Of a stretch of 47,102 nt of DNA, positions 866 to 46,970 are shown one piece after another. The translations under genes were made by a program, and so were the position numbers. The first letter of the stretch is position 1, and each line of letters begins with the position of its first letter. The notes under the pieces are model-generated. The model had not been told where the DNA came from, did not search any database, and was given only the letters and a program-made list of their open reading frames with translations. Source of the DNA: a virus. Location: positions 1-47,102 of IMG/VR virus record IMGVR_UViG_3300032820_001714; one strand, given 5' to 3'.

Positions 866-2046
866 CGTGTGTTGCCATAATAAATTACCTTGTGTTTAGT
901 TGATTTATACTTCCTCCAAGGATCTACTACAATACTATCGTCATTCAAGAAGCAATATAATTCAGAATGTGCTAATAAAACAATTGCACTAAAAGGTCCT
1001 TTCTGCGGACTTACCAATGGATCGACATGGATACAATGATATCCGATATCTAAACAATAATGACCAACTAATAAACTATAACTACCATCTGTTATTTCTA
1101 CTCCTGGCTTATAACTAACTCCATTTAAGAGTATTGGCAGTTTAGTTTCATTGGCTAAATTAACTAACTTCTTAGCCATATTTTTAGCTTGTACTTCTCG
1201 TGTCTTCATTATAGCATCAAACAGATCATATTGCAAGTCCAATTTTTTGGCCATATGCCGTAATGCAATATTATCTCTTGGATGACAAGATCCACCATCA
1301 CCCATTCCTGCTGTCATATATTTTGAACTAATAATCCGTTTTTTACTTTTTGAAAGAGCGTTAGTGACTACATCGACATTAATGTTACCTTGCTTTTCAG
1401 CAACATCTTGGATCATGTTAACAAAACCAATTTTCATACTAATAAAAGTATTATAAAAGATTTTAATACACTCAGCTTCGTCCCACGTTCCTACTTCATA
1501 ACGTGGTTTATTTTCCATTATAGTTTTATAGAACTCTACTAACTGTTCTGCATCAGAAGTTAATTTTCCATCTTCAGTTCCTATAATTACCATTTCAGGA
1601 TTTATCATATCCCACGCCACAGTTCCCATAGCTATAAAATAAGGATTATAAACAAACCGTGTGTTAGTAACTAATGGAACAAACTGACTACGAGTAGTAC
1701 CTGGCAAAACAGTACTAATAAGAACTAATAATTGATCCTTGTTCATATGAAGATTTGCTTCACGTAAAACATCAATAACAATATCGTAACTAAAATCTTT
1801 AGGTTCTAAATGTGCCGTAGGGGCTTTACCGTCATAATCAGGATGATGCGGTGTAGGAACAGCAACAAAAACAATATCCCTATCTTGAACTGTTTCAACA
1901 ATATTAGCTTTAATAGATATATCGTCACTTGTTACATTGGTAATATCATACCCAGTTACATCATGACCTTTTTCAGCAATTACAGTAGCACACGGTAAAC
2001 CTAATTTTCCTAATCCAATAAACCCAATCTTCACACTATTCTCCAT
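862..2046 (-). CDS. UDP-glucose/GDP-mannose-type nucleotide-sugar 6-dehydrogenase
   Basis: This 394-residue enzyme belongs to the family that oxidises a nucleotide sugar at C6 to the uronic acid using NAD. The N-terminal Rossmann motif GFIGLGKLG lies at residues 8-16. A central helical domain follows, with the active-site motif G-G-S-C-H-P-R-D that holds the family's catalytic Cys. The C-terminal UDP-binding domain is present (GVSYKPGVEITDGS). Length is slightly below the usual 410-450. The first codon used is ATG at 2046; a GTG four codons later sits 6 bases after GGAG and is an alternative start. It heads the string with the SGNH hydrolase, and a late-promoter-like CATAAATA lies 30 bases upstream. 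Whether the substrate is UDP-glucose, UDP-GlcNAc/GalNAc or GDP-mannose cannot be read. Confidence 0.88.
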   Translation of the reverse strand: MENSVKIGFIGLGKLGLPCATVIAEKGHDVTGYDITNVTSDDISIKANIVETVQDRDIVFVAVPTPHHPDYDGKAPTAHLEPKDFSYDIVIDVLREANLHMNKDQLLVLISTVLPGTTRSQFVPLVTNTRFVYNPYFIAMGTVAWDMINPEMVIIGTEDGKLTSDAEQLVEFYKTIMENKPRYEVGTWDEAECIKIFYNTFISMKIGFVNMIQDVAEKQGNINVDVVTNALSKSKKRIISSKYMTAGMGDGGSCHPRDNIALRHMAKKLDLQYDLFDAIMKTREVQAKNMAKKLVNLANETKLPILLNGVSYKPGVEITDGSYSLLVGHYCLDIGYHCIHVDPLVSPQKGPFSAIVLLAHSELYCFLNDDSIVVDPWRKYKSTKHKVIYYGNTR

Positions 2047-2096: not shown

Positions 2097-3401
2097 ATGC
2101 AAACTATAATTGATCAGATCAAAAAAAATATATATGTCCGTGAAGTATCAATGTCTATTGCTTCAGAAAAATTGCAAGAAGCATTTAAAGAACATAATAT
2201 TTGGAATGACCAAATACGCTTTTTTCATGCTATGATACAGTATCCTCCAAAATGGCATAAAGAGAGTGATATTTTTACATTTTTAAGAAAAAAAATGTTA
2301 AAGAAATTACGTAATGATCGAAACATATTTTATTTGTTAGATGCAAGTACTGAAGGCTTTAGTACCATATATGGCTCTACTCCATTTTTTGATATATTAT
2401 ATTTTAATTGTATAAAACACAATATTTCACCTAAAAAAATAATTTTTGTTTCCTCTAATATGGTTGAGGAACGAAATATAATTAGATATAATATGGAAAA
2501 CAACATAAAAGAATCTATTCATGTTGCTTGTTTTAACAACTTTGAACAGATGCTTTTTAATTTAAAAGATTACACAAGAGTAGATCCTGAACTTGTAAAG
2601 CAAAAAGACTTACTTGATAAATTTACAGAGGACAGGTATCGTACAGTAGTTAAAGAAAGTACAAGATTTTATTACGGTAGAAAATACTTTTTAAGTCTTA
2701 GTAGAGTAAATAGACCTCATAGAATGTTAAGTACTTATGAAATATTTAATAGTGACATATTTTCGAGAGGTATGGTAAGTCATAACAAACTTCTTGAACG
2801 AGAAAAAGTAAATCAGATGCATGAAGCTCTACCTATTAATTGTGGCATAACAGAAGTTGAATTAGAAAAATTTATTCGAATTTTACCTTTAATTGTTGAC
2901 ACTGAAGACTTTAAAACTAATCATGCTATGTCATTTAGTTCTCATTTACATTGGGCTACTTTATTTCAAGTAGTCAATGAAACATTTGCAGAAAATTGGC
3001 TTAACACTAGCAGATTCTGGAGCGAGAAAACATTTCGTGCTATATATCATATGCAACCATTTATTATTTGGGGGCAACCCGGTGCTAATAAAAATTTACA
3101 AGATTACGGTTATAAATTATATGATAAAATGTTTGATTATCATTTTGATAGTATAAAGGACACAACAAAGCGATGGCGTGTACTTATGAGAGTACTTACT
3201 GATACTGTAAAATATTTAGACAGCTTAAATACAAATAAGCAATTAGAGTGGCGTTTTCAGTGTCAAGACATTTTAAAACATAACTACTCAGTAATGTATC
3301 GTGAAGAACATACTAAACGTGCTATGAAAGACTTGGCATTTAAAATAAAAGCAGTTGTTGATGGAACAGATCCATGGAATGGAATTAAGTTCCTTAAATA
3401 A
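2097..3401 (+). CDS. Putative glycosyltransferase-like protein of unknown specificity
   Basis: This soluble 434-residue protein has no membrane segment. I do not recognise the N-terminal half (about 1-200). The C-terminal third holds S-E-K-T-F-R-A-I followed by Q-P-F-I-I-W-G-Q-P-G and D-Y-G-Y-K near residues 303-345. This pattern recalls a widespread marine-phage protein family with (S/T)EKT..P....PF...G.PG..K.L...G(F/Y)K, which in turn resembles the acceptor/donor-site region of GT-B and fucosyltransferase-like enzymes. That link is from memory and is inference. The gene is the first of three on the plus strand, with an exact late box TATAAATA upstream. No strong ribosome-binding site precedes the ATG at 2097; an in-frame ATG at 2151 is an alternative. 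The surrounding sugar genes support a role in glycan tailoring. Confidence 0.5.
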   Translation: MQTIIDQIKKNIYVREVSMSIASEKLQEAFKEHNIWNDQIRFFHAMIQYPPKWHKESDIFTFLRKKMLKKLRNDRNIFYLLDASTEGFSTIYGSTPFFDILYFNCIKHNISPKKIIFVSSNMVEERNIIRYNMENNIKESIHVACFNNFEQMLFNLKDYTRVDPELVKQKDLLDKFTEDRYRTVVKESTRFYYGRKYFLSLSRVNRPHRMLSTYEIFNSDIFSRGMVSHNKLLEREKVNQMHEALPINCGITEVELEKFIRILPLIVDTEDFKTNHAMSFSSHLHWATLFQVVNETFAENWLNTSRFWSEKTFRAIYHMQPFIIWGQPGANKNLQDYGYKLYDKMFDYHFDSIKDTTKRWRVLMRVLTDTVKYLDSLNTNKQLEWRFQCQDILKHNYSVMYREEHTKRAMKDLAFKIKAVVDGTDPWNGIKFLK

Positions 3402-30800: not shown

Positions 30801-33675
30801 TTGCTGTAATTGTTACAAAGCCTGGATGGTCTGTTTCAAACTGATAATCTATACCATGATATAATTGTACTTTATTTTTATAAATGTAAACTGCTTTATC
30901 TGATAAAGCACTTAAATTAAAATCACTTGACAATGCAAAAAATTGTGTATCTTTATCTTTTACAGTATGACTTGTTTTAGTATATGTTCCTATACCCATC
31001 ATATCGCTAAAGAAAAACGGCATATTATTAGTTTTATCTTTAACTACTGCCTGCATTACTTTTTCAAAATGAGGTACTGTCTCTCCTGTAAATCCTACAG
31101 TATTTGCTTTTTGAAGAAATACTCTTCTAAATTTTCCATACTCATTACTAGCATATCTAATTGCTTTAATAATATTTGCATTAGTATCAGTAATATGATA
31201 TAAAGCAAGATCTACTTGTCCGCTATGTTGTACAAAGCGACGACCATATGGAGCAAGATTTCCTATATCTCTTAAATTATTCATACCAGGCATTGAACCT
31301 AAAAACTCATCATTATATTCACTCAATGAATGAACATGATCGTTAACTTCACCTAATGTAAAAGTAAGAACATTATCATTTAATGGATTTCGTTCTAAGT
31401 TATGCGGTATTTCATAATACCCGTTTTCATTTTTCTTTGTAGCACTATTAGATAGAATTTTAACTACATCATCTTTTACTAACTCTTTAATAAACGTAAC
31501 ATAAGCTACACCATTAATTCTATTAATTGCAAAATCTGTTATATTAAATTTTCTTATGTTATTAACATACACTCTTAACCATAAATCATTTAAGTCACCA
31601 CTACGATCATAAACATCAACAGCAAAACTATTTGTTTGATTAGAAACAACATATTGTCTTACCACGTGTTGTCTACTATTTTTAATAGCTTTAATCCATC
31701 CTGACGTATATGTAAAAGTACTAATATCACTATACTCTTTTAATAATGTTACATCAGTATTTCCTTTTACTTCTGCATTATTTTGTTGATAGGTATATGT
31801 ACCACCTAATAAATTAAAATCAAATAAAATATCTCCTGAATTTTCTAATGCTCTATAACTTAACGAAAATCCTAACTCTGGATCTTTAACTTCACCAGCA
31901 CCTACTTTATAACTAAAAAGTTTATTTCCAACAAATGTTGATGATGGGTAATAAGTTATGTCCGATAATGAATAACCACTCTTATCAAATAAATCAAATA
32001 AAGGCGGTTGGTTTGCATCAATTTTATCTTGTCCAGCTTTCCACTCGGTACCATTATAATACCACATCTTACCTTTATACTCATCACCGTTTCTAACTAA
32101 TACTGTTTCGTTTTCAATTGGGGTTGTATCTGTTTCTTCAATAAGACTAATTTGTCTTATAAGATTATGTGTAATAAATTTTACTTTAAAAATTTTTCCT
32201 GATACTCTACTATCAGGATCAGCAGTAAACAATACACGCATATTGTCAACAATATCTACACCATCAACATTATACCCTATTGCACCTTCAACATTTGAAA
32301 ACACATCATTAGTAAATGTATCTAATAAATCAATATCAGCTTTAGCACTAGTACCAAAATTATGTAATTTTAATCCTGCACTAAATTCAATAATAGGACG
32401 TTTTGCTCTATAATCTTGATCTAGTTCTGGAGGTGTACCTGTAAGTGTTGCAGACAGTTCAATAACTTCTCTATGAAACCATCTGTTATACCTTGCCCAA
32501 GGATTTCTACTTTTAGATGCTTTATTAACTACAAGATAATCTTTTACTCCTGCAAAACTATTAGCATTACTATATGGTAACCTATCAAATCCTACGCTGT
32601 CAAACAAAACAGGTTTATCTGTTGCATACGTAGCCGGAATTTCTAAATCTTTTTCATTAATTAAAGTAATTTCAGTTCCAACACCTTCAATATACCATTC
32701 ACCAGTAGCATATTTTGTAGGAGTTACTGTTCCTTGGAAATAAACCTTTAAACCATTTGAAAAAGCTATTCCACCAGTACTTGTATAAGTTTTTTTACCT
32801 AAAATTTCAGCTTCTACATCTATTTCTGTATTATCAACTGCATCTGCAATTTGTATTAACCCACTTGCATTAATATCATTTCCATTTACATAAAATAATG
32901 TATCAGGTGCATTATCAGGAATTGTCCAAGTAATAGTTCCAACATCAACTGTTTGAGTACTATCATCTAATCCTGTAGTATACAATAAACTAGGATCTAA
33001 TGAACGTGCAGTTCTAAATGTTAATGGCATTCCTACTGCATCAATTTCAAAGATGTATGTTTGTCCTCTAAATAATTTTAAAGTTGGATTAGATGTTAAT
33101 CCGTCAGGTGTGAAAATATAACTATTGTTGTCTATATTATCTTTTTTAGTTACTTTATAAGTACTTTCAACATCTTTAGCATTACCGGCAATGCCTATTC
33201 CTATTGGACCATTGGGTAACCAATAATATTCTCGAAAATTTGTAAACTTATCCCATTCAATATGCGGGTTCCAAGCATAATATTCTTGACTATTAAGTTT
33301 ACTATGATCATCTACAGTACCGCCAAACGCTCTTATTTGATTAATATAATCATTGTAGTCTTTATAAAAAGTAACATTGTTTAAATTATCTTTTACTACT
33401 ACCGCTGGGTCTAATTGATAACTTTCTCTATCAGAATTATGTTCAGAAATATAAGTATCATCGGCTTTGTATGCTTTAGCAGTACGTCGGCCAAAGTATC
33501 CACTTAACTTTTCTGCCACACCGGGTTGAATTAACTGATCTAAAGTTGCATTAAGAAACTTTTTATTAGTTATACTACGAAAATATCTAGGAAGTAATTC
33601 CGCACTAGGTCTTCGTGGCGGTTTTACACCACCAGTTGGTAACGGATATTCATGTTGGTCATCGGAAAAAGCCAT
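18880..33675 (-). CDS. Giant virion structural protein, 4931 residues, at the gp7 baseplate position
   Basis: One unbroken frame of about 14.8 kb, directly after gp6, where T4 has baseplate gene 7 (about 1030 residues). The N-terminus (F-R-S-I-T-N-K-K-F-L-N-A-T-L-D-Q-L near 32-48) recalls gp7-position proteins of marine T4-like phages. Visible parts: four short carbohydrate-binding-like modules (about 1437-1480, 1700-1742, 2199-2242, 2817-2862), and FG-GAP-like propeller blades (about 2112-2189, 2892-3020, 3074-3097). Two G-x-G-Y-x-x-(A)-P-T beta units lie near 3515 and 3880-3935. At least five F-x-G-D/N-G-x-T beta repeats run from about 4127 to the end, and near 4754-4786 lies P-G-I-I-F-I-N-G-E-R-I with R-R-G-T-L-G-T-G. 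No enzyme motif or membrane segment is seen. It probably combines a baseplate wedge base with a long fibre-like or receptor-contacting extension. ATG at 33675 shares one base with the gp6 stop. Confidence 0.8.
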   Translation of the reverse strand: MAFSDDQHEYPLPTGGVKPPRRPSAELLPRYFRSITNKKFLNATLDQLIQPGVAEKLSGYFGRRTAKAYKADDTYISEHNSDRESYQLDPAVVVKDNLNNVTFYKDYNDYINQIRAFGGTVDDHSKLNSQEYYAWNPHIEWDKFTNFREYYWLPNGPIGIGIAGNAKDVESTYKVTKKDNIDNNSYIFTPDGLTSNPTLKLFRGQTYIFEIDAVGMPLTFRTARSLDPSLLYTTGLDDSTQTVDVGTITWTIPDNAPDTLFYVNGNDINASGLIQIADAVDNTEIDVEAEILGKKTYTSTGGIAFSNGLKVYFQGTVTPTKYATGEWYIEGVGTEITLINEKDLEIPATYATDKPVLFDSVGFDRLPYSNANSFAGVKDYLVVNKASKSRNPWARYNRWFHREVIELSATLTGTPPELDQDYRAKRPIIEFSAGLKLHNFGTSAKADIDLLDTFTNDVFSNVEGAIGYNVDGVDIVDNMRVLFTADPDSRVSGKIFKVKFITHNLIRQISLIEETDTTPIENETVLVRNGDEYKGKMWYYNGTEWKAGQDKIDANQPPLFDLFDKSGYSLSDITYYPSSTFVGNKLFSYKVGAGEVKDPELGFSLSYRALENSGDILFDFNLLGGTYTYQQNNAEVKGNTDVTLLKEYSDISTFTYTSGWIKAIKNSRQHVVRQYVVSNQTNSFAVDVYDRSGDLNDLWLRVYVNNIRKFNITDFAINRINGVAYVTFIKELVKDDVVKILSNSATKKNENGYYEIPHNLERNPLNDNVLTFTLGEVNDHVHSLSEYNDEFLGSMPGMNNLRDIGNLAPYGRRFVQHSGQVDLALYHITDTNANIIKAIRYASNEYGKFRRVFLQKANTVGFTGETVPHFEKVMQAVVKDKTNNMPFFFSDMMGIGTYTKTSHTVKDKDTQFFALSSDFNLSALSDKAVYIYKNKVQLYHGIDYQFETDHPGFVTITATKVVDDIIEIYEYETTDGSYIPPTPTKLGLYPKYKPIKYIDNTYQVPTEVIQGHDGNIFVCFGDFRDDLLLELEQRIFNNIKSEYDSTILDIHEFIGGESRDTKFTKWARDKALITDFVAWLENVGNIDYTDHDFYVRSNSFTFNYSAMTAPSGKQLPGYWRGVYKEAFDTDRPHTHPWEILGYTIEPTWWKTVYGPAPYTRENKILWQDIEDGIVREPGKALKYLTAYARKDITKHIPVDGEGNLLSPLDSNFAKNYVLVLTNKEFVFGDEAPTETAWRRSSEYPFAFICSWILNQPTKIMGLGFDRSRIIRNPAKEIIYSETDKRLRLKDLIFPMVITDEDRVNTSGLVNYICDYINSESLGTYSDYTTALKSVKNQIGFKVAGFTHKDKFKLVLDSRSPFNEGNVFVPDENYKIFLNKSSVVDLVSYSGVMIEKRPAGFVIKGYDKTNPYFKYFAARELSDDPVVKIGGVTDPFLDWTENQVYVLGQTVQFNNDYYRVKEAHTSSTTFQQQFFARLIELPVTGGREAFFRRQFDLSPNIINSTKELAYGTLLTTVQEVVDFLLGYGKWLETQGFDFNFFNPEINVIENWELSAKEFLFWTTQNWREDSVISLSPAGNRLKFKRDYYVSDNIFDNFHDYTLLRADGRKLDSEFAKIYRSNDNEFQITTQNTADGIYAVKLPLIQKEHVCLIDNHTVFNDIIFDLEPGYRQERIKVLGYRTDDWKGSLNIPGFVYDNAIINEWKSYQDYVLGDTVKYKEFYYISITKSPGTENFDSSKWERLTAKPEAKLIPNLDYKAKQFKDFYDLDTDNFDTEQQRIAQHLIGYQKRDYLANIIQDDVSQYKFYQGYIQDKGTQNSLTKLFDALSSADKDSIDFYEEWAVKLGQYGSSDGFDEVEFKLDEAKFKLSPQPVELVDTVSGLETDLIYRLRPFEVYLKPNNYNHKPFPNRSTFLEYIQTAGFVNEDDVKLTVAKFDDILDATISDLNVGDYVWVGLRGTTWDVVKYVRTTDNVIAVSSDTTAGTTTLQLKTQARYEANDIIGILDVGQDEAEPIEKFFKVKSVSLDTIICYANGETPDVELSENFDTTKQGFITKFVSARVASMADANTRIINSELQVGELIWVDDDDTGKWIVLQNKPTYSSHQLISNLAPGEDHLFGKVIASDERNTILIASASEQEKVYVFNRVADNVDYYHRQTISAPNGLYTGPGKFGSSIALTDNGDHLVIGAPNASYVKTKFKGDFDGGLPYVAGDIVKYSETTWEAQFPISAATGALTFPSFWSTSFIEEANYDIGNNSYPTIVYAIRGDYGIDVSTDHVLIRAPLAQYEGSTDGDKVVLNWNEFSQNYPNGVLPWGNTGPGVAALEGQKVIANKIDAVLYIDNLIRIPTVGDSLSSDTAVGEIAYIRIENVSQSIIYMTDVSGAFDPTGELFYNAVSCGDFELIRPASAADTFGGWWKIDGIPAFTTTVTSAQQISIPNLIGQDFITQAESRSPVVFGNTMDDVRALSLVLDPTRGGRLGHLSYYDKQGLPNLSELWFIRGAKVFTDTLNVTDNFTMWLNTIRGGVAPISVFDPASLGLTFSYVNSAHAVYDLWSGFIDVTFTNFDNLGNPYIPQVGEIIIDDTTGATAEVTYLQEQLLTCRLYVKDRVGTFSFGFNNSASSTLSIKDAISSGVNRLSGRLDHADMDSSIAGKMVVIKNTDSSQLPVTSPAFQNELEVHFYSSSTVSGISRIPNYPTPLNKDWVQTFNIQAHTEGVASAYVNQGIILTYDKTANGEYSLNHGYVSEYAAEEDSNTFGFKYFGKQLEFATNSKLHYLHVSSGVEYDGSTVGTAGRVYFYNHGTDADGISYDYAVGKDKNYKGVFSDTVAYFENDIVLHQQYFYQSKTNLPAGAFDSSLWTQLSSHIDYVGYVPNDLGLTVDDETIVDHTTLTGFATPFTINKDGNILVVVAEFTDSDPKVLIYRINNGHYEFSQVIVTPKAGIGFGNAIAVSDDGTIVAVGAPLQDEIDTNNGAVYVYRQVAGSFIWSQTLYSPENDVAERFGATLDFDKDNLAVSSRGGDLISTTTFDANTTVLPTSFDNNLTQYKTSNEDSGQVLIFQRFNDTLLYSEKFVYNNPVTRRFGDYLLFTDNHVYVSMPELTTTPGDNYQGTIIDFRRNRDVLSWQTLRYPLDQVDVSKFKGVFVYNTSKNVLTSQIDYIDPVQGKIAGSAEEEIAFKTLYDPATYTIGGTISVVDESAAWGKNYVGKIWWDLSTAKYHNPYQGSIIYQTATWGKLFKGASIDIYEWVETTLKPSEWSELADTEEGLAQGISGQPKFADDSTLSTRQIYNKQAQSFSTQYYYWVKNKKHIPSMDWRKTSAYDVAQLIEDPKAQGYKYAALYSDSRFALYNCDALFTANDSAVNFRYWTIPVYTNIHNEYQLISEGLKTSKPKADVERKWFDSLIGWDTNYRAVPNPELSVKEKYGILNRPRQSWFVNRLEAVKQLIERVNRVLIQHIIVDEYDLNKLGTIDPMPTINSGKFDQAVDIYAEIVFVGTANVKQAVLTPIWENGRLARVDIADPGRGYKVAPTYQFSKVGNGQGAELIITIDTLGKISTVTVKHSGREYSLNTELTVRKYSTLIKADESIGDKWSIHAYNSVSELWERTDSQAFNVPAYWHYANWYATGYNKFTQVDYLIDESYQLTALDDTLGDVVKIKTVGSGGWLLLKKINDVPDVDYTTNYETIGRENGTIQFSSSLYNYQGWYIGYDSLSYDTSNYDNQPVHEFRLILEALRDDIFINDLAVEYNKLFLSSLRYVLSEQKFVDWAFKTSFLKAKHNIGDLAEKITFQNDNLPSYEKFIEETKPYKTKIREYLTSYTKLDNTQSVTTDFDLPPAYDIQAGRIIPASLKVKDDALYGVDPGLINYPNKHWKDNLGYEVEEIQIKNGGTKYLEIPVITLSGGGGTGAKAQAYIGTGGKITHIKITNVGSGYLSAPTVAVNGTQSDGGVPAVVSAKLGNGKVRNAHIISRFDRVTGTFLITTLEETESFTGNASKQKISLKWPMDLRPSQIYITISDVEALTSEYTFKNVADTTKGYTRYTGEIFFTEPPKLNASIVIKYSKAVDMLQAQDRINLFYKPTDGMLGNDIAQLMDGIDYGGVEVRAFDFGGGAGWFSQPWFTSTWDTFDNTYEDEVFTLDGSTNVFELSKPLEDGVTYNVYKNGIRVDDPQFDGSTIGVTGNPNAVMESIVGDGVTQTIQINEELIPTVADDVIIIRKASSDGSFVPDPDAYDTALQGGDLAYSTAKGILSEEIVVDGDGFVTVLSSKGPEELVPGQIMDTVDFKVYDRTADGSSIISSHNYIGDQAVTGYSVTRLPASQNDLFVKLNGNILIPQTDFTVNYQTKQVVFTNPVQTGDSIHISTMSNNGEKIFDLDKFVGDGSTSQFVTPVLYKTGLTYTLTVDGETVQTDLDETDDTYETPNRAVFKLGTVPNPGAVIQYVIYDSTSQAFSQVTTDDFTGNGVTTKFTLSQTPFASKPTSHNIIVKVGNKILNAGYNQQFTVVLGREYQLRQWQISTATISAENVKVFLNGVAIELNQQWRWDTFNGSVVLFAGIGAVGDKLEVFVIDSGAYQLGFFDQQTSLFVSTPDEVYLDTPLANGETLTVYQFSKHDIRKIERETFDVVARNPVTIGTDSYTEYHQLTNGIIRLREEAIDAEYVWISLNDVLLTPSIDYYVTDDKKHIRIVVDIDTNDTIEVIHFTNPVMIPKFGFRIFKDMLNRTHYKRLGDDNKYTLAEDLNWYDTKIYVTNYDNLPLPNKDKGIPGIIFINGERIEYYLKEGNAIRQLRRGTLGTGIAELHKKGSDVFDQSTPQTVPYKDEILTEVFDADGSTAAITVDFIPKSVNEFEIFVAGKRLRKNAISSFDETVNLDSPEADVTLPAEFSVDGTTSTVTMLDTPAINSKIIVVRKLGKLWTDPGVPLHRQENTIGRFLRSAEATLPK
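24388..27340 (-). other. FG-GAP-like beta-propeller blades within the giant protein
   Basis: Blade-like units recur: G-K-F-G-S-S-I-A-L-T-D-N-G-D-H-L with V-I-G-A-P; G-F-G-N-A-I-A-V-S-D-D-G-T-I-V with A-V-G-A-P; E-R-F-G-A-T-L-D-F-D-K-D-N-L; and R-R-F-G-D-Y-L-L-F. Each is followed by V-Y-V-F/Y-like strands. This is the F-G...D-G...V-G-A-P signature of FG-GAP/integrin-alpha-type propellers. The blades lie in two blocks separated by unrelated sequence, so they may form one interrupted or two partial propellers. Confidence 0.55.
25092..29367 (-). repeat. Four dispersed carbohydrate-binding-like modules within the giant protein
   Basis: Four copies of a 43-46-residue pattern lie at 29238-29367, 28450-28578, 26950-27081 and 25092-25227. 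Each has Y-(V/F)-x-(G/N)-(Q/D)-x-V-x-(F/Y/H), then a paired aromatic near the middle, and ends F-x-x-x-(W/F). The second reads Y-V-L-G-D-T-V-K-Y and F-D-S-S-K-W; the fourth F-E-N-D-I-V-L-H and F-D-S-S-L-W. The layout recalls family 5/12 carbohydrate-binding modules. This is a protein-level repeat; DNA copies have diverged. Confidence 0.55.
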
Positions 33676-36600
33676 TAGACACCATATCCCCCAGAGCCTG
33701 ATGAAACATTACCTGATGTGTATGTTCCAGCACTTTGTATACCTGAATTAGTTGACGTTGCTACAGTTAAAACTTTACCTGAAGCTTTTAATCTACTTGC
33801 TGTAACGGCATCTATTACTTCAACATTATCAACAGTCGCTCCACTAACAAAAATTTCATCTGATTCAGATTTAATTTCATACAAACTACCAAACCCTTGC
33901 AGTTGTTGGTTAGGAACAATTACAATTGTTACTAACTCAGGTGCAACGGTCGCCATAATAAAAGTACTCAACTCTGAGAAATAAAACGTGTCTCCAAAAT
34001 CCCAATTATCTAAAGCAAAGAATTGGTTGATTGCTGAAATAACTTTTGCCTTAATTGCATTAGTATTAACAACTTGGTCTGGATTTTTAACTATCTTAAA
34101 TGTTGCTTGTAAATCTATATCAGCATTTGCTCCAAATAAAACTTTATACTTTACAGGATGATAAATTACTTCATCACTAATTGATTTAATTTTATTAATC
34201 TCAGATCCATAATTATTAAACAAATTATCGCTACTTGGCGGCAATGGTCTTTCTGTTACTGTACCATCTAAAAATTCTCTAAATAAATCATCATAACTTT
34301 TCGTTAATAGATATGTGTCAATAATATTACTGCTACTTGGATCAATTCTATTATCGTCATCTGCCGCGTGTACATATTGAAATTTAAGTTTGTCTCTTCC
34401 AACAAACGCTCTATATTCTGTCGTTAATACCAATGCACCAGCTGTATATATTTTAAATACATTCTCTGTAACTAGATAAAAAATTTGTCCAGCAGTATAT
34501 TGACTTAATGCACCTACAACACTTTCAGATTGTTTTACATTTACTACTGCACCATCAATATAACTATAATCTTCAATTCCATCAGTAGTAATATACCTTT
34601 TCTGGAAAATATATTTTGTTAATGGATTCGTTGTTTCTTTAACAATTTCAAGAAAGGTTTCAGGATCATCAACAACTCCGTCTTCGTCATCATCATAAAA
34701 ACTTACTTCAACTTTTTTACTATCAACATATCCATCAGCATCACGATATGCATCAGAAATTTCCCAATCATGCTGTACTGTAAATGGTATTAATTCGTCT
34801 GGTTTTAAATTAATAGATAAGACTGAAATTTTATCCTTAATAATTTGTCCTGTTTTATTGTCAAATACTTTATCAGCACTATCAAAATAAAATCTAATTT
34901 CTTCATCACTTTCAAAAATATATCTTAAACTACGATATGTAATTGTATATTTTTCACCATCTGTTTCAAGTAATAACAACCAACTTGCATCTAATTGTTG
35001 ATTAGTAGTATCTCCGGTTTTACCTAAACTGAAGTCTCCGAGAATACTTAAATTATTTTCAACTACAATTCTCCATTGTCTTAAATTAGTATCATATCTT
35101 AAACCAAATGTTTTATTAGCAAATAATTGATCGATGATTTGTGTTTTTACAGTTTCTACCAATGTTTTAGAAAATTTAGGTACAATTTGCTGTAAAACAG
35201 CCGTTGACGGAATAATATCATTAAGTATAATTGGTCCTGAACCATCTGTATTATCAACAGCACCGTCACCAACAATACTAACTACTTTAACCCATTTATA
35301 ATCAAGTGCCCCTATATGATCTGGATCGCCTAACATTAATGTACCATCTGTCATAAAATGATATCCATCAGGCGCTAAAAATTTTATTAATGTGCCTTCT
35401 TCAAGAAATCTTAATGCACTACCTGTAAATCCTGCAACTTGAAATCTTGTTCCGTCAACATCTTCAAAATGACCAGTTGTTTGATTAGTTCCTTTTGTAG
35501 TTTGTACCCAACTTGCTCCTAAATCTGAAACAATTGTTTTAGGAAAGTTTGTCAAATAATAATTTAACAATTGTTTTTCAGCTAAAATAGGTTGAATTAC
35601 TTCTTCAACAATTCCTTCAAGGTCTACTTTTGTTGTATATACAAAATTCTTATATTTCGTTAATGTCTCTTTATATACAACACCATCATTACCAAATAAA
35701 TTTGTACTAGAATATTTTCCAGTACTATCTAGTAAATCAAAATAACGTGAAATACCACTTGATGCTCTATTAACACTTTTAACTTTAACAATTTCTTGAC
35801 TAATTCTTAAAGGTGCAACTTGATAATCTTCACCAGTAACCATTCTATTTTGTGTATAATAAGTTGCAGGTGCATTTTCACGGATACTTACATTTGTTTC
35901 AGTAGTAGTTGCATTGTCTACTGTATATTTTAATGACAATGTTACGTTTAATGTTTCTTGATTCCCAACTGCTGACGTATACGGAATTGCTATTCCTACT
36001 GACGTCATATCTGCAGGAATAATACTATATGCTTGATTAATACTTGTTCTGTAATAAACTCTAAAATCACCGTTAGGTAAATTACCAAAGACACCGTCTG
36101 AGAACATTAAATTAATTTTATCTTGAGATTGTGTAAGAACAGCATAAATGTTTCTAACACTTTTACGTAAACTATTATAAACAATATTATTACCTTCAAC
36201 TGCTTCAACCTTAGTCCATAATTCGGATTCAGCACCAATTGAATTTAATTTGTAAAGCCATACATCTGAATGATTAACATTAGTTGCATCAACAGAAATT
36301 GTTTGATTAGTACTAGGAGTATTAACAGTAAATGTTCCTTGGTCTAATGTACCTTGTCTAAAATGACCGAAGTACCCGCTATTAGCACTTCCTGGTCCAC
36401 GACCATCATCTCTATATAAAAATGCTAAACTGTTACCAGGTAAAGGTGGCTCTTCAGATATAACTCCGTCAATAACATCAACTGATGTTATTTGGAATGG
36501 TAAATTTCTTCCATCAATATTTTTATTATAACTATAAACCGGAACATCTGTATTACTTGCTCTATATCTGTATTGATGTGTTAACACACCTTCTACTGTA

Positions 36601-37130
36601 TCTTTTTTTACTGGACGGCCAATAGTAGAATTTACCGGTAATGCCGCATTAAGAATCTTTTCAAACTGTTCTCGCCAATCTGGATTAGCTGGATCATTCC
36701 AAACAACTGTTTGGTTAGCTAAATTAGTACCATTTGAATCTACTATTTCTTCTGATGACGATACTGCTTCAAATTTAATTAACCCATTAGCTGTTTGATT
36801 CCGCTTTGGATTATATGACAATAGTCGTGCTAAACGTAATACTGATTCTCTACGTTCTGCTAATTCAAGAAAGTTCTCTCTAGAGTTAAGATCAATACGA
36901 TAAGAAATATTTTGCCCTAAGAATGCAATAAGATCTATTAACGCTAGGTATTCACTTGAATCAATATAATCATTAAAATCTTCTGGATAGTTCTCGCGAA
37001 TATAAGCAATCATAGTGCGACGTAGACCATCAAAATCATACGATCTAAAGTCTGCATTTCTAAATGTTTGATATACACGCTTCCAGTCTTCTGCAAGAAG
37101 CAATCTATTTTGTCTATTTGTTACTGACAT
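33675..37130 (-). CDS. gp6: Baseplate wedge protein gp6
   Basis: At 1151 residues this is longer than T4 gp6 (about 660), as is usual in marine relatives. The N-terminal region is characteristic: F-R-N-A-D-F-R-S-Y-D-F-D-G-L-R, then Y-I-R-E-N-Y-P-E-D-F-N-D-Y, then L-I-A-F-L-G-Q-N and R-E-N-F-L-E-L-A-E-R-R-E-S. This is the conserved start of gp6/gpJ-type wedge proteins. In T4, gp6 dimers form the ring that joins the six wedges and contact gp53, gp25 and gp7. The C-terminal 200 residues look like the conserved gpJ-like domain ending in a flexible Ser/Gly tail. The ATG has AGGA upstream and a late-promoter-like AATAAATA 20 bases away, so gp6 and the giant gene form one transcript. Order gp25-gp6 is as in T4. 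Confidence 0.92.
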   Translation of the reverse strand: MSVTNRQNRLLLAEDWKRVYQTFRNADFRSYDFDGLRRTMIAYIRENYPEDFNDYIDSSEYLALIDLIAFLGQNISYRIDLNSRENFLELAERRESVLRLARLLSYNPKRNQTANGLIKFEAVSSSEEIVDSNGTNLANQTVVWNDPANPDWREQFEKILNAALPVNSTIGRPVKKDTVEGVLTHQYRYRASNTDVPVYSYNKNIDGRNLPFQITSVDVIDGVISEEPPLPGNSLAFLYRDDGRGPGSANSGYFGHFRQGTLDQGTFTVNTPSTNQTISVDATNVNHSDVWLYKLNSIGAESELWTKVEAVEGNNIVYNSLRKSVRNIYAVLTQSQDKINLMFSDGVFGNLPNGDFRVYYRTSINQAYSIIPADMTSVGIAIPYTSAVGNQETLNVTLSLKYTVDNATTTETNVSIRENAPATYYTQNRMVTGEDYQVAPLRISQEIVKVKSVNRASSGISRYFDLLDSTGKYSSTNLFGNDGVVYKETLTKYKNFVYTTKVDLEGIVEEVIQPILAEKQLLNYYLTNFPKTIVSDLGASWVQTTKGTNQTTGHFEDVDGTRFQVAGFTGSALRFLEEGTLIKFLAPDGYHFMTDGTLMLGDPDHIGALDYKWVKVVSIVGDGAVDNTDGSGPIILNDIIPSTAVLQQIVPKFSKTLVETVKTQIIDQLFANKTFGLRYDTNLRQWRIVVENNLSILGDFSLGKTGDTTNQQLDASWLLLLETDGEKYTITYRSLRYIFESDEEIRFYFDSADKVFDNKTGQIIKDKISVLSINLKPDELIPFTVQHDWEISDAYRDADGYVDSKKVEVSFYDDDEDGVVDDPETFLEIVKETTNPLTKYIFQKRYITTDGIEDYSYIDGAVVNVKQSESVVGALSQYTAGQIFYLVTENVFKIYTAGALVLTTEYRAFVGRDKLKFQYVHAADDDNRIDPSSSNIIDTYLLTKSYDDLFREFLDGTVTERPLPPSSDNLFNNYGSEINKIKSISDEVIYHPVKYKVLFGANADIDLQATFKIVKNPDQVVNTNAIKAKVISAINQFFALDNWDFGDTFYFSELSTFIMATVAPELVTIVIVPNQQLQGFGSLYEIKSESDEIFVSGATVDNVEVIDAVTASRLKASGKVLTVATSTNSGIQSAGTYTSGNVSSGSGGYGV

Positions 37131-37149: not shown

Positions 37150-37157
37150 TATTTATT
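37150..37157 (-). promoter_or_regulatory. Late-promoter-like AATAAATA
   Basis: Minus-strand AATAAATA, 7 of 8 bases of the T4 late box, 20 bases before the gp6 ATG, in the 56-base gap between gp25 and gp6. An AGGA ribosome site lies between. The same octamer at nearly the same distance occurs before 18858. Confidence 0.6.
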
Positions 37158-37186
37158 TAAATTCATTAACCACATAGTTAATTCTA

Positions 37187-42035: not shown

Positions 42036-42332
42036 TTATCCTAGTTCTGATTTTACATCAGTTACATTTGGTAAAAGGATCTCAACTCCGGATTCGATAT
42101 CATAAATTGGATCTTCTATGATATCCATATTTCGTTGTGCAAATACCCACCATAATTTTGGATTGTCATATAAGTCATAAGCAAGTAAGTCTGGCCTATG
42201 ATTATATTGTGGTTCTATAACATAAGGTACATCGTCAGGTGATGCTGGAACTGGACGAATTTGAAAATATCCTAAAGAAGATCCGTTGTCAATATAAAGT
42301 GTATTCTTCCACGGTGATGATGCACTTGGCAT
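42036..42332 (-). CDS. gp53: Baseplate wedge protein gp53
   Basis: A 98-residue protein (T4 gp53 is 196) with the characteristic Y-N-H-R-P-D-L-L-A-Y-D-L-Y near residues 43-55, then W-W-V-F-A-Q-R-N near 61-68, and D-P-I-Y-D-I-E-S-G. This is the conserved gp53 core, which is LysM-like in structure. In T4 it joins the wedge to the hub and sits near gp6 and gp25. The short length means mostly the core is kept. Its start has a strong AGGAGG ribosome site, placed inside the end of the upstream gene, and the ATG shares one base with that gene's stop. Confidence 0.82.
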   Translation of the reverse strand: MPSASSPWKNTLYIDNGSSLGYFQIRPVPASPDDVPYVIEPQYNHRPDLLAYDLYDNPKLWWVFAQRNMDIIEDPIYDIESGVEILLPNVTDVKSELG

Positions 42333-43258
42333 TAAATAAATCCTCCTGTGTTCTTACCAACATACGCACCTTTAACAAATTTATCAAGGCTGAATGATTC
42401 AACTGCCGTTCTGCTGTAAAGAGGCTGTACTGTTACTGCAAATAAACTTTGTGTCGGTGCCCAACTACTTTTTGTATCTTTAGGATTTGCATTTCCACTA
42501 TGATGTCTAGCTTGTGCATTTTTTGTCATCATAGGTCCCATTATACCGCCTTCATACTCACCTATTGCAGTAGAAATATAATCAACTTCTTGTGGCATAT
42601 CAATTGTAAACTGTACTATAACAACAGGAACATCATTGAATACATAATCACCATAGCCATTTAATTTAACTACTGGTGGCGGAGCACCTTGTGTTACAGA
42701 ATTATCTCCACCATAAAACATTTTTGTACAGCTTCTTAAATAATGAAGTGCTGACACCCAATATTGTGCTTCAAAGCCGTTCTGTACAAAAAAGTCACCA
42801 GTAATAACTAACTGGTCCACTTGTGATGCTGTATAAATTTGGTACGGATAATTAGTATGTGTAGGAGCTAACGCATTATAACTTGCACTATGACTTACTA
42901 GCACAGCAGGAGTAAACGGAAATACTAATCCATTTGTTTCACGTAAAGGGGCTAATAACTCTGACTCATTCTTAAAAGGTTCGATATTGGGAATACTTAA
43001 ACGCACTCGCCAGTCTTGTTCTTGGGCTTTAGGAAAACTTCCTACAGCCGCTGATTTAACAGGACCAAATACCCCGTCCGGTAGATTCTTCTTCCGGGTT
43101 TCCTTCATAAAGGCCTTAGAACTTGTAATATCTTCAGCCCACGTTTGGGCTTTTCGAATTCCGGGTTCTAAATTTTTTAAATTTGGTGCTACAAATTCAT
43201 TTACAGCATCAAATCCACCTTGTATTTTATTAGCTACATTTTGTACAAAACCTACCAT
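42332..43258 (-). CDS. Tail-tube/baseplate junction protein, gp48-like candidate
   Basis: A 308-residue structural protein at the head of the tail string. Residues about 80-165 have a tube-protein-like beta region (W-R-V-R-L-S-I-P, F-P-F-T-P-A-V-L-V, I-Y-T-A-S-Q-V-D). The centre holds Y-G-G-D-N-S and V-K-L-N-G-Y-G-D-Y-V-F-N followed by V-V-I-V-Q-F-T-I-D-M-P. I recall this kind of protein beside gp53 in cyanophages, annotated as the tail-tube cap gp48, but I cannot align it with T4 gp48, so the name is tentative; gp54 or another tube initiator is possible. The ATG has AGGAG and a late-promoter-like box 20 bases upstream. Confidence 0.5.
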   Translation of the reverse strand: MVGFVQNVANKIQGGFDAVNEFVAPNLKNLEPGIRKAQTWAEDITSSKAFMKETRKKNLPDGVFGPVKSAAVGSFPKAQEQDWRVRLSIPNIEPFKNESELLAPLRETNGLVFPFTPAVLVSHSASYNALAPTHTNYPYQIYTASQVDQLVITGDFFVQNGFEAQYWVSALHYLRSCTKMFYGGDNSVTQGAPPPVVKLNGYGDYVFNDVPVVIVQFTIDMPQEVDYISTAIGEYEGGIMGPMMTKNAQARHHSGNANPKDTKSSWAPTQSLFAVTVQPLYSRTAVESFSLDKFVKGAYVGKNTGGFI

Positions 43259-43277
43259 TTGGCTATACTCCTACAAG

Positions 43278-43285
43278 TATTTAGT
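43278..43285 (-). promoter_or_regulatory. Weak late-promoter-like ACTAAATA
   Basis: Minus-strand ACTAAATA, 6 of 8 bases of the T4 late box with the constant TAAATA half, 20 bases before the ATG at 43258. The spacing matches the better sites before gp6, 18858 and 14307. It overlaps the first base of the plus-strand -35 box of gp55. Confidence 0.42.
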
Positions 43286-43313
43286 TGACTTTATTAAGTG
43301 TATAGTTTATAAT
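43285..43313 (+). promoter_or_regulatory. Host sigma-70-type promoter of the gp55-gp47-gp46 string
   Basis: TTGACT at 43285-43290 and TATAAT at 43308-43313 are 17 bases apart, the ideal spacing for a bacterial housekeeping promoter. The -10 box is a perfect match and the -35 box matches 5 of 6. The gp55 start codon is 24 bases further on. This is the only near-consensus sigma-70 promoter I found in an intergenic gap. Confidence 0.78.
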
Positions 43314-43336
43314 AAGTTATTACTATGGAGAATTTC

Positions 43337-44188
43337 ATGAGGAAAGTAAACTATTTAAACAACAGAGATCTACTAGCAGAGATCCACAAATCAAAAAACA
43401 CATTTTCTAGCTACACAGATGAGGGGTACGATCAATTTGATGTAATTTTACCGAGCATTGATAAGATTAATATACGTACAACCGCAGAAGCCAAGCGAGC
43501 TAGAGCTAAACGCATAGGTCAAAAAGACTATGAACGACGCAAAGCTGACGGTGAAAAAATAAAACAATCAGAATGTGATATAGACTATAGAAAAATAAAC
43601 AAAGAAGACGTAATTTTTAGGGTAATGATGTTTGATCATATACCTGATGACAAAGGACGCAAAAAGAAACCTAAAACTATTGCTGATACTAAAGAAAAAC
43701 TAAATTTCCCACCATTCCAACATTATAAGTTTAATGAAGAAGGCCAACTTCAAGTTGTTGGCAAAAGTCATTGGGTTGGAGGTATGGAAAACGGTTATTA
43801 TGATAAAGGCTGTGGTCAAGCAACTAATAAACTTGCTATGATGTGGATGAAGTTATGTGAACGATACGCAACTAGAGGCAATGTTAGAGGATATACGTAT
43901 AATGATGAAATGAAAGGACAAGCAATTTTACAACTTGCACAAATAGGCTTACAATTTGACGAATCTAAATCAAACAATCCATTTGCATACTATACTGCCG
44001 CAGTTACAAACTCATTTGTTAGAATTATTAACATTGAAAAACGCAATCAAAACATTAGGGACGATATTTTAGAAATGAATCATATGAACCCATCATTTAC
44101 TCGACAAAACCAAGGAGCGTGGGAACGAGAAATGAAAGAACATAATAAAAATTATAAAGCACCCGAAAAAAAGGTAAAAGAAAAGTAA
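43337..44188 (+). CDS. gp55: Late sigma factor gp55
   Basis: This sigma-like protein directs RNA polymerase to T4 late promoters. The C-terminal half carries the family core: G-C-G-Q-A-T-N-K-L-A-M-M-W-M-K-L, N-D-E-M-K-G-Q-A-I-L-Q-L and N-P-F-A-Y-Y-T-A-A-V-T-N-S-F-V-R. At about 283 residues it is far longer than T4 gp55 (185). The extra length is a Lys/Arg-rich N-terminal region around residues 45-110, with A-E-A-K-R-A-R-A-K-R and D-K-G-R-K-K-K-P. I chose ATG at 43337 because GGAGA (43327-43331) lies 5 bases before it; the in-frame ATG at 43325 overlaps that site and would add four residues. The gene has its own host-type promoter and runs directly into gp47. Confidence 0.92.
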   Translation: MRKVNYLNNRDLLAEIHKSKNTFSSYTDEGYDQFDVILPSIDKINIRTTAEAKRARAKRIGQKDYERRKADGEKIKQSECDIDYRKINKEDVIFRVMMFDHIPDDKGRKKKPKTIADTKEKLNFPPFQHYKFNEEGQLQVVGKSHWVGGMENGYYDKGCGQATNKLAMMWMKLCERYATRGNVRGYTYNDEMKGQAILQLAQIGLQFDESKSNNPFAYYTAAVTNSFVRIINIEKRNQNIRDDILEMNHMNPSFTRQNQGAWEREMKEHNKNYKAPEKKVKEK

Positions 44189-45205
44189 ATGTTTAAAAAG
44201 GCCGCCGTCTTTACGGATATACACTTTGGATTAAAGTCAAACAGCAAAGTACACAATGATGATTGTGAAGAATTTATAGATTGGTATATTGACCAAGCTA
44301 AAGAACATAATTGTGAAACCGGTATCTTTATGGGTGACTGGCATCACAATAGAAATAGCTTAAACATTACTACCATGGACGCTACTATCCGAAGTTTAGA
44401 AAAACTTGGGAAAGCATTTGACAATTTTTACTTCTTTCCTGGTAATCACGACTTATACTATAAAGATAAACGTGATATTCATTCCATAGAGTTTGGTAAA
44501 CACATTCCTGGCATTACTATTATTAACAAAATTACAACAAAAGGTGATACTACTTTAATACCTTGGCTTGTTGGTGACGAATGGAAACAGATTTCAAAGA
44601 TTAAAAGCAAATATATATTCGGTCACTTTGAATTACCAACGTTTTATATGAACGCTATGGTGCAAATGCCTGACACTGGCGAACTCCAACCTGATCATTT
44701 TAAAAATCAAGACTATGTGTTCTCCGGACACTTCCATAAAAGACAAGTTAAAGGCTGTATCAATTATATAGGTAATGCATTACCTCACAACTATGCTGAT
44801 ACTTGGGACGATGAACGCGGTATGATGATATTTGAGCACGGCGGCGCTCCTGAATATCTTAACTGGTGGAATTGTCCCAAGTATCGCACGGTTAAACTAT
44901 CACGCTTATTAGATGAAAAAGATACATTAATTAAACCAAAGATGTATTTGCGTGTTACATTAGACTTACCGATATCATATGAAGAAGCAAGTTTCATAAA
45001 AGAAACATTTATTAATGAATATAAGTGCAGAGAAATTACACTTATACCAAATAATAAAGATGATGAGATTAATACCGACATTGATATTACAAAATTTGAA
45101 AGTGTTGACCAAATTGTTGCTAAAGAAATCCAAGCTATTGAGTCAGACAACTACGATAAAGCAAAATTACTTAACATTTATAACAAGCTAGGGCAAGATG
45201 ATTAA
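44189..45205 (+). CDS. gp47: Recombination nuclease subunit gp47 (Mre11/SbcD-like)
   Basis: A 338-residue metallophosphatase, the same size as T4 gp47 (339). The phosphoesterase motifs appear in order: T-D-I-H-F-G near residue 9, G-D-W-H-H-N-R near 48, F-F-P-G-N-H-D-L near 80, G-H-F-E near 154, and S-G-H-F-H-K-R near 188. These hold the Asp, His and Asn residues that bind two metal ions. In T4, gp47 pairs with gp46 to process DNA ends for recombination-dependent replication and to help degrade host DNA. The ATG follows the gp55 stop with no gap and its end overlaps gp46 by 8 bases, so the pair is translated together. Confidence 0.95.
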   Translation: MFKKAAVFTDIHFGLKSNSKVHNDDCEEFIDWYIDQAKEHNCETGIFMGDWHHNRNSLNITTMDATIRSLEKLGKAFDNFYFFPGNHDLYYKDKRDIHSIEFGKHIPGITIINKITTKGDTTLIPWLVGDEWKQISKIKSKYIFGHFELPTFYMNAMVQMPDTGELQPDHFKNQDYVFSGHFHKRQVKGCINYIGNALPHNYADTWDDERGMMIFEHGGAPEYLNWWNCPKYRTVKLSRLLDEKDTLIKPKMYLRVTLDLPISYEEASFIKETFINEYKCREITLIPNNKDDEINTDIDITKFESVDQIVAKEIQAIESDNYDKAKLLNIYNKLGQDD

Positions 45206-46970
45206 AATACAAGACATAACTGTTAAAAACTTTATGAGTGTAGGTAATACTACACAAGCAATTAACTTTAATATAGATCAACTAACTCTTGTTTTAGGTG
45301 AAAACTTAGATCAAGGTGGAGACGATGCTGGATCACGTAATGGTACAGGTAAAACAACAATAATCAATGCTTTAAGTTATGCATTGTTTGGTCAAGCCCT
45401 TACAAACATTAGACGTGATAATTTAGTAAACAAAACTAACAACAAAGGTATGTTAGTTACTTTAAGTTTTGAAAAAAACGGAGAAAAATACCATATTGAG
45501 CGAGGACGTAAACCTAATTTACTAAAATTCTCTATTAATAACGAAGATCAAGAAATAACTGATGAGAGTCAAGGTGATTCTCGTAAAACACAACAAGACA
45601 TTAATACATTACTAGGTATGAGTCATAATATGTTTAAGCATATACTGGCATTGAACACATATACTGAACCATTCTTAGCAATGAAGAACAATGATCAACG
45701 TGCTATTATAGAACAATTATTAGGTATTACTATACTATCTGAAAAAGCAGAACTATTACGTGAGCAAATGCGTATTAATAGAGATAGAACCACTGAAGAA
45801 AATGCAAGACTAACCGCAGTTCAAGATAGTAATGAAAAAATTAAAGAAAACATTGAACGCTTACAAAGTAGACGTAAGGCTTGGATAGCACAAAACAAAG
45901 AGACTTGTGTTAAACTGCAAAAAGGAATTCGTGAATTAGAACAATTAGATATTGACAGTGAATTAGAAGACCATGAAAAGTTAGCTGAGTGGACTGACCT
46001 TAATAAACACCATAAGAATCTTACAAAAGAACTAGCAACTGTTGAACGTGCATTAGAACAAGCAGATAAAAATGTACAAAAGATAGGTAGTGATCTTGAT
46101 AACCTTGAACACGCCAAGTGCTATGCTTGTGGACAAGAACTACATGACGAGAAACTTGAAGAAATGAAGAACTCAATTCAAGCAGACTATGGTGATGCAC
46201 ACACTTACATGATTGAAATTGCTAATAAGCAAGATAAAGTACAAAAGAAATTAGAAGACATTGGTGATCTAAGTAGAAAACCTAATCCGTTTTATGAAAC
46301 AGCTAAAGAAGCCTATGAACATAGAGGTAATGTTGAAAACTTAAAGAAAGTATTAACAGAAAAAGAAGAAGAAACTGATCCTTATCAAGAACAAATAGAT
46401 GATCTAAAACATACAGCATTACAAGAAGTTAACTGGGACATTCTTAATGAACTAACGTCATTAAAAGACCACCAAGACTTTTTATATAAGCTATTAACAA
46501 ACAAAGATAGCTTTATAAGGAAGAAAATTATTGATCAAAATCTTGCATACTTAAATAACAGGCTTACTTACTATCTTGATAGAATAGGATTACCACATAC
46601 TGTTACATTTTTAAATGACTTAAACGTAGAAATTACACAACTTGGTCAAGACTTAGACTTTGATAACTTGTCAAGAGGTGAACGTAATAGATTAATCCTT
46701 GGATTAAGTTTTGCATTTAGAGATGTTTGGGAAAGTTTGTACCAACATATTAACTTACTGTTTGTTGATGAACTAATAGATAGTGGTATGGATACAGCAG
46801 GTGTTGAATCCTCTTTAAGTATATTAAAGAAAATGGGTAGAGAACGTAATAAAAACATATACCTTATTTCACATAAAGATGAATTAATGGGTAGAGTAAC
46901 TAACGTATTAAAAGTTATTAAAGAAAATGGCTTTACCTCCTATGACAATGATGTAGAGGTTATGCAATAA
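45198..46970 (+). CDS. gp46: Recombination nuclease subunit gp46 (Rad50/SbcC-like)
   Basis: A 590-residue SMC-like ATPase (T4 gp46 is 560). The Walker A motif is G-S-R-N-G-T-G-K-T-T near residue 50. Two coiled-coil arms, rich in Glu, Lys and Leu, run at about 180-300 and 320-410, joined by the zinc hook C-Y-A-C-G near residue 308. The ABC signature is L-S-R-G-E-R-N near residue 490, followed by Walker B in L-L-F-V-D-E-L near 520 and the switch His in Y-L-I-S-H-K-D. All expected catalytic parts are present. It works with gp47 on DNA ends. The next gene starts within its stop codon. Confidence 0.95.
   Translation: MIKIQDITVKNFMSVGNTTQAINFNIDQLTLVLGENLDQGGDDAGSRNGTGKTTIINALSYALFGQALTNIRRDNLVNKTNNKGMLVTLSFEKNGEKYHIERGRKPNLLKFSINNEDQEITDESQGDSRKTQQDINTLLGMSHNMFKHILALNTYTEPFLAMKNNDQRAIIEQLLGITILSEKAELLREQMRINRDRTTEENARLTAVQDSNEKIKENIERLQSRRKAWIAQNKETCVKLQKGIRELEQLDIDSELEDHEKLAEWTDLNKHHKNLTKELATVERALEQADKNVQKIGSDLDNLEHAKCYACGQELHDEKLEEMKNSIQADYGDAHTYMIEIANKQDKVQKKLEDIGDLSRKPNPFYETAKEAYEHRGNVENLKKVLTEKEEETDPYQEQIDDLKHTALQEVNWDILNELTSLKDHQDFLYKLLTNKDSFIRKKIIDQNLAYLNNRLTYYLDRIGLPHTVTFLNDLNVEITQLGQDLDFDNLSRGERNRLILGLSFAFRDVWESLYQHINLLFVDELIDSGMDTAGVESSLSILKKMGRERNKNIYLISHKDELMGRVTNVLKVIKENGFTSYDNDVEVMQ

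Follow-up and report, generated by a model that had tools for sequence, protein, structure and literature searches.

The window, by which we mean the whole 47,102-nucleotide stretch of viral DNA analysed here (IMG/VR record IMGVR_UViG_3300032820_001714), is about 98% coding. Towards its right end a 78-bp gap (43259-43336) separates a virion gene read leftward (start 43258) from the late sigma factor gene gp55, read rightward (ATG 43337). The genes concerned, all identified with PHROGs, are:

33675 to 37130, minus strand: gp6, baseplate wedge gene (phrog_10646, 1.8e-293), the second regulon member
42332 to 43258, minus strand: virion structural protein gene (phrog_12050, 3.7e-46), predicted to be read from the leftward late promoter
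43337 to 44188, plus strand: gp55, late sigma factor, 283 aa (phrog_12791, 1.5e-71; phrog_234, 1.7e-22)
44189 to 45205, plus strand: gp47, SbcD-like nuclease subunit (phrog_100, 4.6e-66), downstream of gp55
45198 to 46970, plus strand: gp46, SbcC-like nuclease subunit (phrog_77, 1.7e-97)

This order, with gp55, gp47 and gp46 to the right and the tail string to the left, had been described in an earlier note on this DNA and is both real and conserved: the same genes diverge from baseplate genes in PA5oct, RaK2, Vibrio 2.275 and Atu_ph07, and also in Phosso, there with extra genes in between. The PA5oct and RaK2 counterparts of the leftward gene are annotated as virion structural protein. By sequence as well as by fold gp55 belongs to the T4 gp55 late sigma family, since its profile matches T4 gp55 (7d7c) with an E-value of 9e-10 and its predicted model superimposes on T4 gp55 over 122 residues (Z 13.3, rmsd 2.9). 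Compared with T4 gp55, the protein in this clade has about 100 more residues, with the T4-like sigma core matching, by sequence, from about residue 132; a PDB fold search with the predicted protein taken as a whole returned convincing matches only to sigma-type structures (T4 gp55/sigma region 2). Relatives mostly begin at the equivalent of ATG 43337, or align from residue 5, and this ATG is most likely the true start, which fixes the limits of the gap. The gap includes TATTTAGTTGACTTTATTAAGTGTATAGTTTATAAT, its positions 43278-43316 read TATTTAGTTGACTTTATTAAGTGTATAGTTTATAATAAG on the plus strand, and its elements are:

43268 to 43272, minus strand: Shine-Dalgarno AGGAG of the leftward gene, with a late leader of about 14 nt predicted from the sequence
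43278 to 43285, minus strand: T4-type late box ACTAAATA, reading into the tail/baseplate string, predicted start about 43272
43285 to 43290, plus strand: -35 of the gp55 promoter, TTGACT, having base 43285 in common with the late box
43294 to 43309, no strand: palindromic -30 box, TTAAGTGT and ATAGTTTA on the two sides of its axis, clade consensus TTAASTRC and GYASTTAA
43308 to 43313, plus strand: -10 of the gp55 promoter, TATAAT, predicted start about 43320
43327 to 43330, plus strand: Shine-Dalgarno GGAG of gp55, serving ATG 43337

A near-consensus sigma-70 promoter reading into gp55, a late-box-like site reading left into the tail string, and the meeting of the two at base 43285 had all been proposed in the earlier note, and all three hold: the -35 occupies 43285-43290 and the late box 43285-43278, and the latter is conserved in all fused relatives. 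The gp55 promoter, TTGACT-N17-TATAAT, is likewise conserved and carries 11 of the 12 sigma-70 consensus letters; it is the joint top among 42 promoter-like matches in the last 7 kb of the window. It has the form of a sigma-70 promoter (TTGACA-N16-18-TATAAT with a gene start downstream), and we predict that it is of the early type and makes gp55-gp47-gp46. A second strong sigma-70 promoter, TTGACTTTATTAAGAAAATGTAGTATAAT, lies near 55637 in one relative (G002), at about the end of gp55 and ahead of the next gene.

The late box ACTAAATA lies 19 nt upstream of the ATG of the leftward gene, and its start was predicted by the T4 convention that places the box at -13 to -6 (PMC1524935). By itself the 8-mer was dropped as evidence, since its count (two in the window, seven expected) is not beyond chance, and the case for a late box therefore rests on position and on relatives. 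At 14-24 nt upstream of starts the window has seven copies of TAAATA, where permuted hexamers give 0.86, and a relative (G001) has 22, where they give 7.8; across the whole window it is depleted (56 vs 126 expected from dinucleotide shuffles), and the coding sequence of relatives strongly avoids ATAAATA. The late-box consensus in relatives, before virion genes, is GATAAATAY. Positional enrichment and gene identity thus mark the site as a T4-type late promoter (TATAAATA-like box before virion genes), and with a gp55 homologue present it is a candidate site for gp55-RNA polymerase. In all nine records scanned the gp55-side late box reads CTAAATA, off the GATAAATA norm, which hints weakly at activator dependence, as activator-dependent promoters would show such a departure. 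The two predicted starts are 48 bp apart, so that two polymerases cannot sit on both sites simultaneously.

The string TATTTA(G)TTGAC, in which late box and -35 are fused, is kept in 79 of the 80 closest gp55 loci, the contig of the remaining one beginning too near gp55 to show the gap; every close relative that does show the gap has the fused arrangement, and the TTGAC of the -35 is invariant (47 distinct close relatives). Relatives' records are environmental contigs, many of them partial and with gene calls from a simple script, and orthologous promoters are not independent events in our counts; the wider set holds 125 distinct fused loci, including that of Agrobacterium phage Atu_ph07, with gp55 identity reaching down to 37%. 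Late box and -35 are separated by 1 nt in 115 of these loci and by none in 10, and the sigma-70 spacer is exactly 17 bp in 119, whereas distances to the flanking genes vary on both sides. When the pattern was scanned across IMG/VR, 73 of 80 loci matched gp55 directly, six more ended inside an apparent gp55, and one was a chance match in coding sequence rather than a gp55 5' end. With 125 distinct relatives retaining the pair, and a pattern scan that finds almost only gp55 5' ends, the arrangement is not due to chance. Nor does the composite recur at other gene borders, as the fused string occurs once per record, at gp55, in 15 long records, one extra variant match (in G003) aside. The late box is also present, but no fused -35, in relatives of the TAGGC type (see below) and in those whose gp55 promoter is separate, and the overlap is thus not a general requirement.

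The spacer of the gp55 promoter had been treated as neutral in the earlier note, which missed the conserved palindrome at 43294-43309. Across 987 pairs with less than 65% gp55 identity, the spacer is 65% identical, compared with 34-36% for both flanks. The sigma-70 promoter does not explain this conservation, because other strong promoters of the clade (in G001, G002 and G004) have unrelated spacers, which rules out the spacer letters as a general sigma-70 trait. The axis of the palindrome (43301/43302) and the centre of the late box are 21 bp apart, and the palindrome lies two helical turns behind that box, centred at about -30 from the predicted late start. It overlaps the spacer of the gp55 promoter and extends two bases into the -10. 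Its core palindrome, AACTACGTAGTT, considered as the invariant unit, gave way to the wider TTAA...TTAA symmetry after the gp6 promoters were aligned; the core types in the clade are RCGYA, TAGGC and AACTAGTT. In TAGGC-type relatives (L282-L348), TAGGCRC direct repeats adjoin the late box and a hairpin-like GACCTGTTTGTGGTC precedes gp55.

The same box is found behind the late promoter of gp6:

37150 to 37183, minus strand: gp6 late boxes TAAATA (37150-37155 and 37154-37159) with the -30 box TTAACCACATAGTTAATT at 37166-37183

Collected independently, 54 distinct gp6 promoters have AASTGCGTACTTAATT at the identical late-box offset, and a scan matrix was built from gp6 late promoters only. In this matrix one axis of symmetry stands out (correlation 0.78, with most other axes near 0), and at register 0 the matrix scores 16.4 bits at the gp6 promoter of the window and 9.8 bits at the box in the gp55 gap. 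Over nine records (1.02 Mb) it gave 33 noncoding matches of at least 13 bits, against 0.4 expected from the coding rate; several box-like sites fall in gaps without an in-register late box. Among 178 late boxes, 19 have a -30 box at register 0, and at most one has it at any of 52 other registers. The 19 belong to the gp55-side gene (9/9 records), gp6 (seven), a gp26-like hub gene (two) and one 421-aa tail gene; without gp6, the training set of the matrix, 12 are left. The set of late boxes that bear the element is small. Run over 192 gp55 gaps, the gp6 matrix peaks at offset 0 or -1 in 129 of 129 fused loci; its peak in the TAGGC-type loci is at -1 or -2 (29 of 29), while shuffled controls scatter.

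In other relatives, which have no fused -35, the core at the gp55 gap is another one, ATTAAAACTAGTTTTAAT, and the element also stands at other late promoters, including those of gp25 and a gp26-like gene. In L280, L284 and the L274-L289 group the gp55 promoter lies further right, and a similar element is found with its distance to the late box unchanged. Being carried by other relatives without a fused -35, the -30 box is, on sequence comparison, independent of the early promoter. The gp55 gaps of Phosso and Atu_ph07 fit an ATWAA-N8-TTAAT frame; directly upstream of gp6, no late box with the element was seen in the isolates Atu_ph07, Phosso, PA5oct, RaK2 and Vibrio 2.275.

T4 late promoters are the textbook example of promoters that have no upstream element and are activated by the sliding clamp. 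They are described as lacking any upstream or -35 element (PMC2988020), and we saw no -30 palindrome in the 13 T4 late promoters that we inspected. The leftward promoter resembles them (gp55/gp33/gp45; PMC2988020) in its gp55 homologue, its TAAATA-type box about one turn upstream and its virion genes, but this clade bears a conserved palindromic -30 box on a subset of late promoters. Since that box is conserved at the leftward and other late promoters, and the T4 control is negative, we class the leftward promoter as T4-type but in a variant form, distinct from that of T4 itself. In T4 middle promoters a box near -30 for the activator MotA is combined with a -10 element; the box here is similarly activator-like and near -30, but it is a palindrome, and a late box takes the place of the -10. 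Cyanophages are without motA/asiA (PMC2984593). The late box itself is shared with phage Aeh1 (CTAAATA, including the C at -12 seen here on the gp55 side; PMC1524935) and with cyanophages (NATAAATA; PMC2984593), for neither of which did we find a reported upstream palindrome; the gp55 gap of cyanophage S-SSM5 has no leftward late box, and a search for late promoters in pelagimyophages was reported as unsuccessful (PMC7029224). T4 DsbA, a small DNA-binding protein whose role is unresolved, has A/T-rich sites over two late promoters (PMC2988020), but its site is not defined as a palindrome of the kind seen here. Overlapping early and late promoters in RB49 and S-PM2 (PMC2984593) are similarly placed together to time genes, although there both precede the same gene, whereas here they diverge. 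In the papers that we searched, we found no description of this palindromic -30 box.

A parallel in logic is offered by phage phi29, in which p4 binds between opposed early and late promoters (A2b/A2c/A3), acting there as a repressor of the early promoters and an activator of the late promoter (PMC3100819). Its anatomy, opposed promoters with a regulator site over the early one, is also that of the gap, as read from sequence; the likeness is one of proposed logic and not of membership, since in phi29 the host polymerase serves both promoters and p4 cooperates with p6, whereas here a phage sigma acts on the late side, the box is one palindrome and the factor is putative. By analogy, the sigma-70 promoter, starting at about 43320, would make gp55, gp47 and gp46, while the gp55-type late promoter, starting at about 43272, would read left into the baseplate and tail genes. 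Once infection has advanced, a dimeric, probably phage-encoded factor would bind the palindrome; at about -30 it would be placed to touch the late polymerase and could help gp55-polymerase at these late promoters, and the same bound factor, as its site extends over the spacer and into the -10, would exclude sigma-70 polymerase and turn gp55 transcription off. That the gap is a compact switch of this kind, on which a dual-acting, probably phage-encoded putative factor activates late and represses early transcription, stands in our view about an even chance of being correct. The wider claim, that throughout a large T4-like clade a phage-encoded dimeric factor on the -30 box at tail/baseplate late promoters also silences the early promoter of the late sigma, is possible, and we put it somewhat below that. 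Among the few small conserved proteins scanned, none had a regulator match; a 68-aa basic protein encoded after gp46 in the gp55 operon (in G001), considered as a candidate, had no PHROG match and only DUF6300 in Pfam (E 0.07, below cut-off).

One may also consider explanations without such a factor. It is unlikely, though worth serious consideration, that, as proposed in the earlier note, gp55-polymerase sitting on the leftward late site simply covers the rightward -35, so that gp55 limits itself with no extra factor. The 0-1 nt between late box and -35 in 125 relatives, kept though gene distances vary, would agree with this, as would the distance between the starts, from which the footprints must overlap. 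However, such occlusion leaves unexplained both the conserved palindrome and its recurrence at the late promoters of gp6 and other genes, and TAGGC-type relatives have late box and palindrome without a fused -35. Because the conserved palindrome is common to other tail/baseplate late promoters, a separate factor is better supported than occlusion alone for early shut-off. A factor that binds the box need not be an activator, and the palindrome might be the site of a repressor, which would silence gp55 together with selected late promoters of tail/baseplate genes and release them on its loss or on titration by replicated DNA. A palindrome over spacer and -10 lies where repressors classically bind, it has the same location behind late boxes, and as judged from the sequence a position at -30 would suit a repressor of the late promoter equally well. 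We nevertheless regard this as quite unlikely, since a single repressor would then control the late sigma as well as a few tail genes, and the box-bearing gp55 late boxes are off-consensus and better suited to activation.

It appears improbable that the late polymerase itself, through gp55 or a gp33-like partner, reads the -30 box and so defines a second class of late promoter. While the fixed register to the late box and the roughly 100 additional residues of gp55 would fit such direct reading, the box is present at just 19 of 178 late boxes, its symmetry suggests a dimer, and the gp55 model, searched as a whole, gave matches to T4 gp55 and sigma region 2. The density of coding sequence in the window makes it conceivable that two promoters were squeezed into the 78-bp gap with no regulatory coupling, but the conservation of the spacer far above its flanks, the exact register and the recurrence at other genes make this very improbable, and we disfavour it.

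If the switch with a dual-acting factor is real, many T4-like phages would time virion assembly by means of a specific transcription factor, and the -30 box at a small tail/baseplate regulon would offer a sequence handle for finding it. Atu_ph07 carries the arrangement, and Sinorhizobium phage Phosso carries it more weakly; the occurrence in Atu_ph07 makes it testable in a cultured phage.

Some further sites were seen in the window and its relatives. At 2047-2081, between the divergent genes at 862-2046 (minus strand) and 2097-3401 (plus strand), a box-like TTATATGCGTATATAAATACT leads directly into the one perfect copy of TATAAATA in the window, and an equivalent site lies near 77125 in G001. 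In L464, L468 and L471 a late box stands only about 7 nt before an ATG (that of a gp25-like gene in L468), which would give a leaderless late mRNA. Eight relatives (L274, L275, L277, L279, L286, L289, L304 and L317) have a rightward TAAATA that precedes the -35 of gp55 by a few bases (TAAATACTTATTGACA); this would be a further arrangement by which a late site might overlap the early promoter of gp55.
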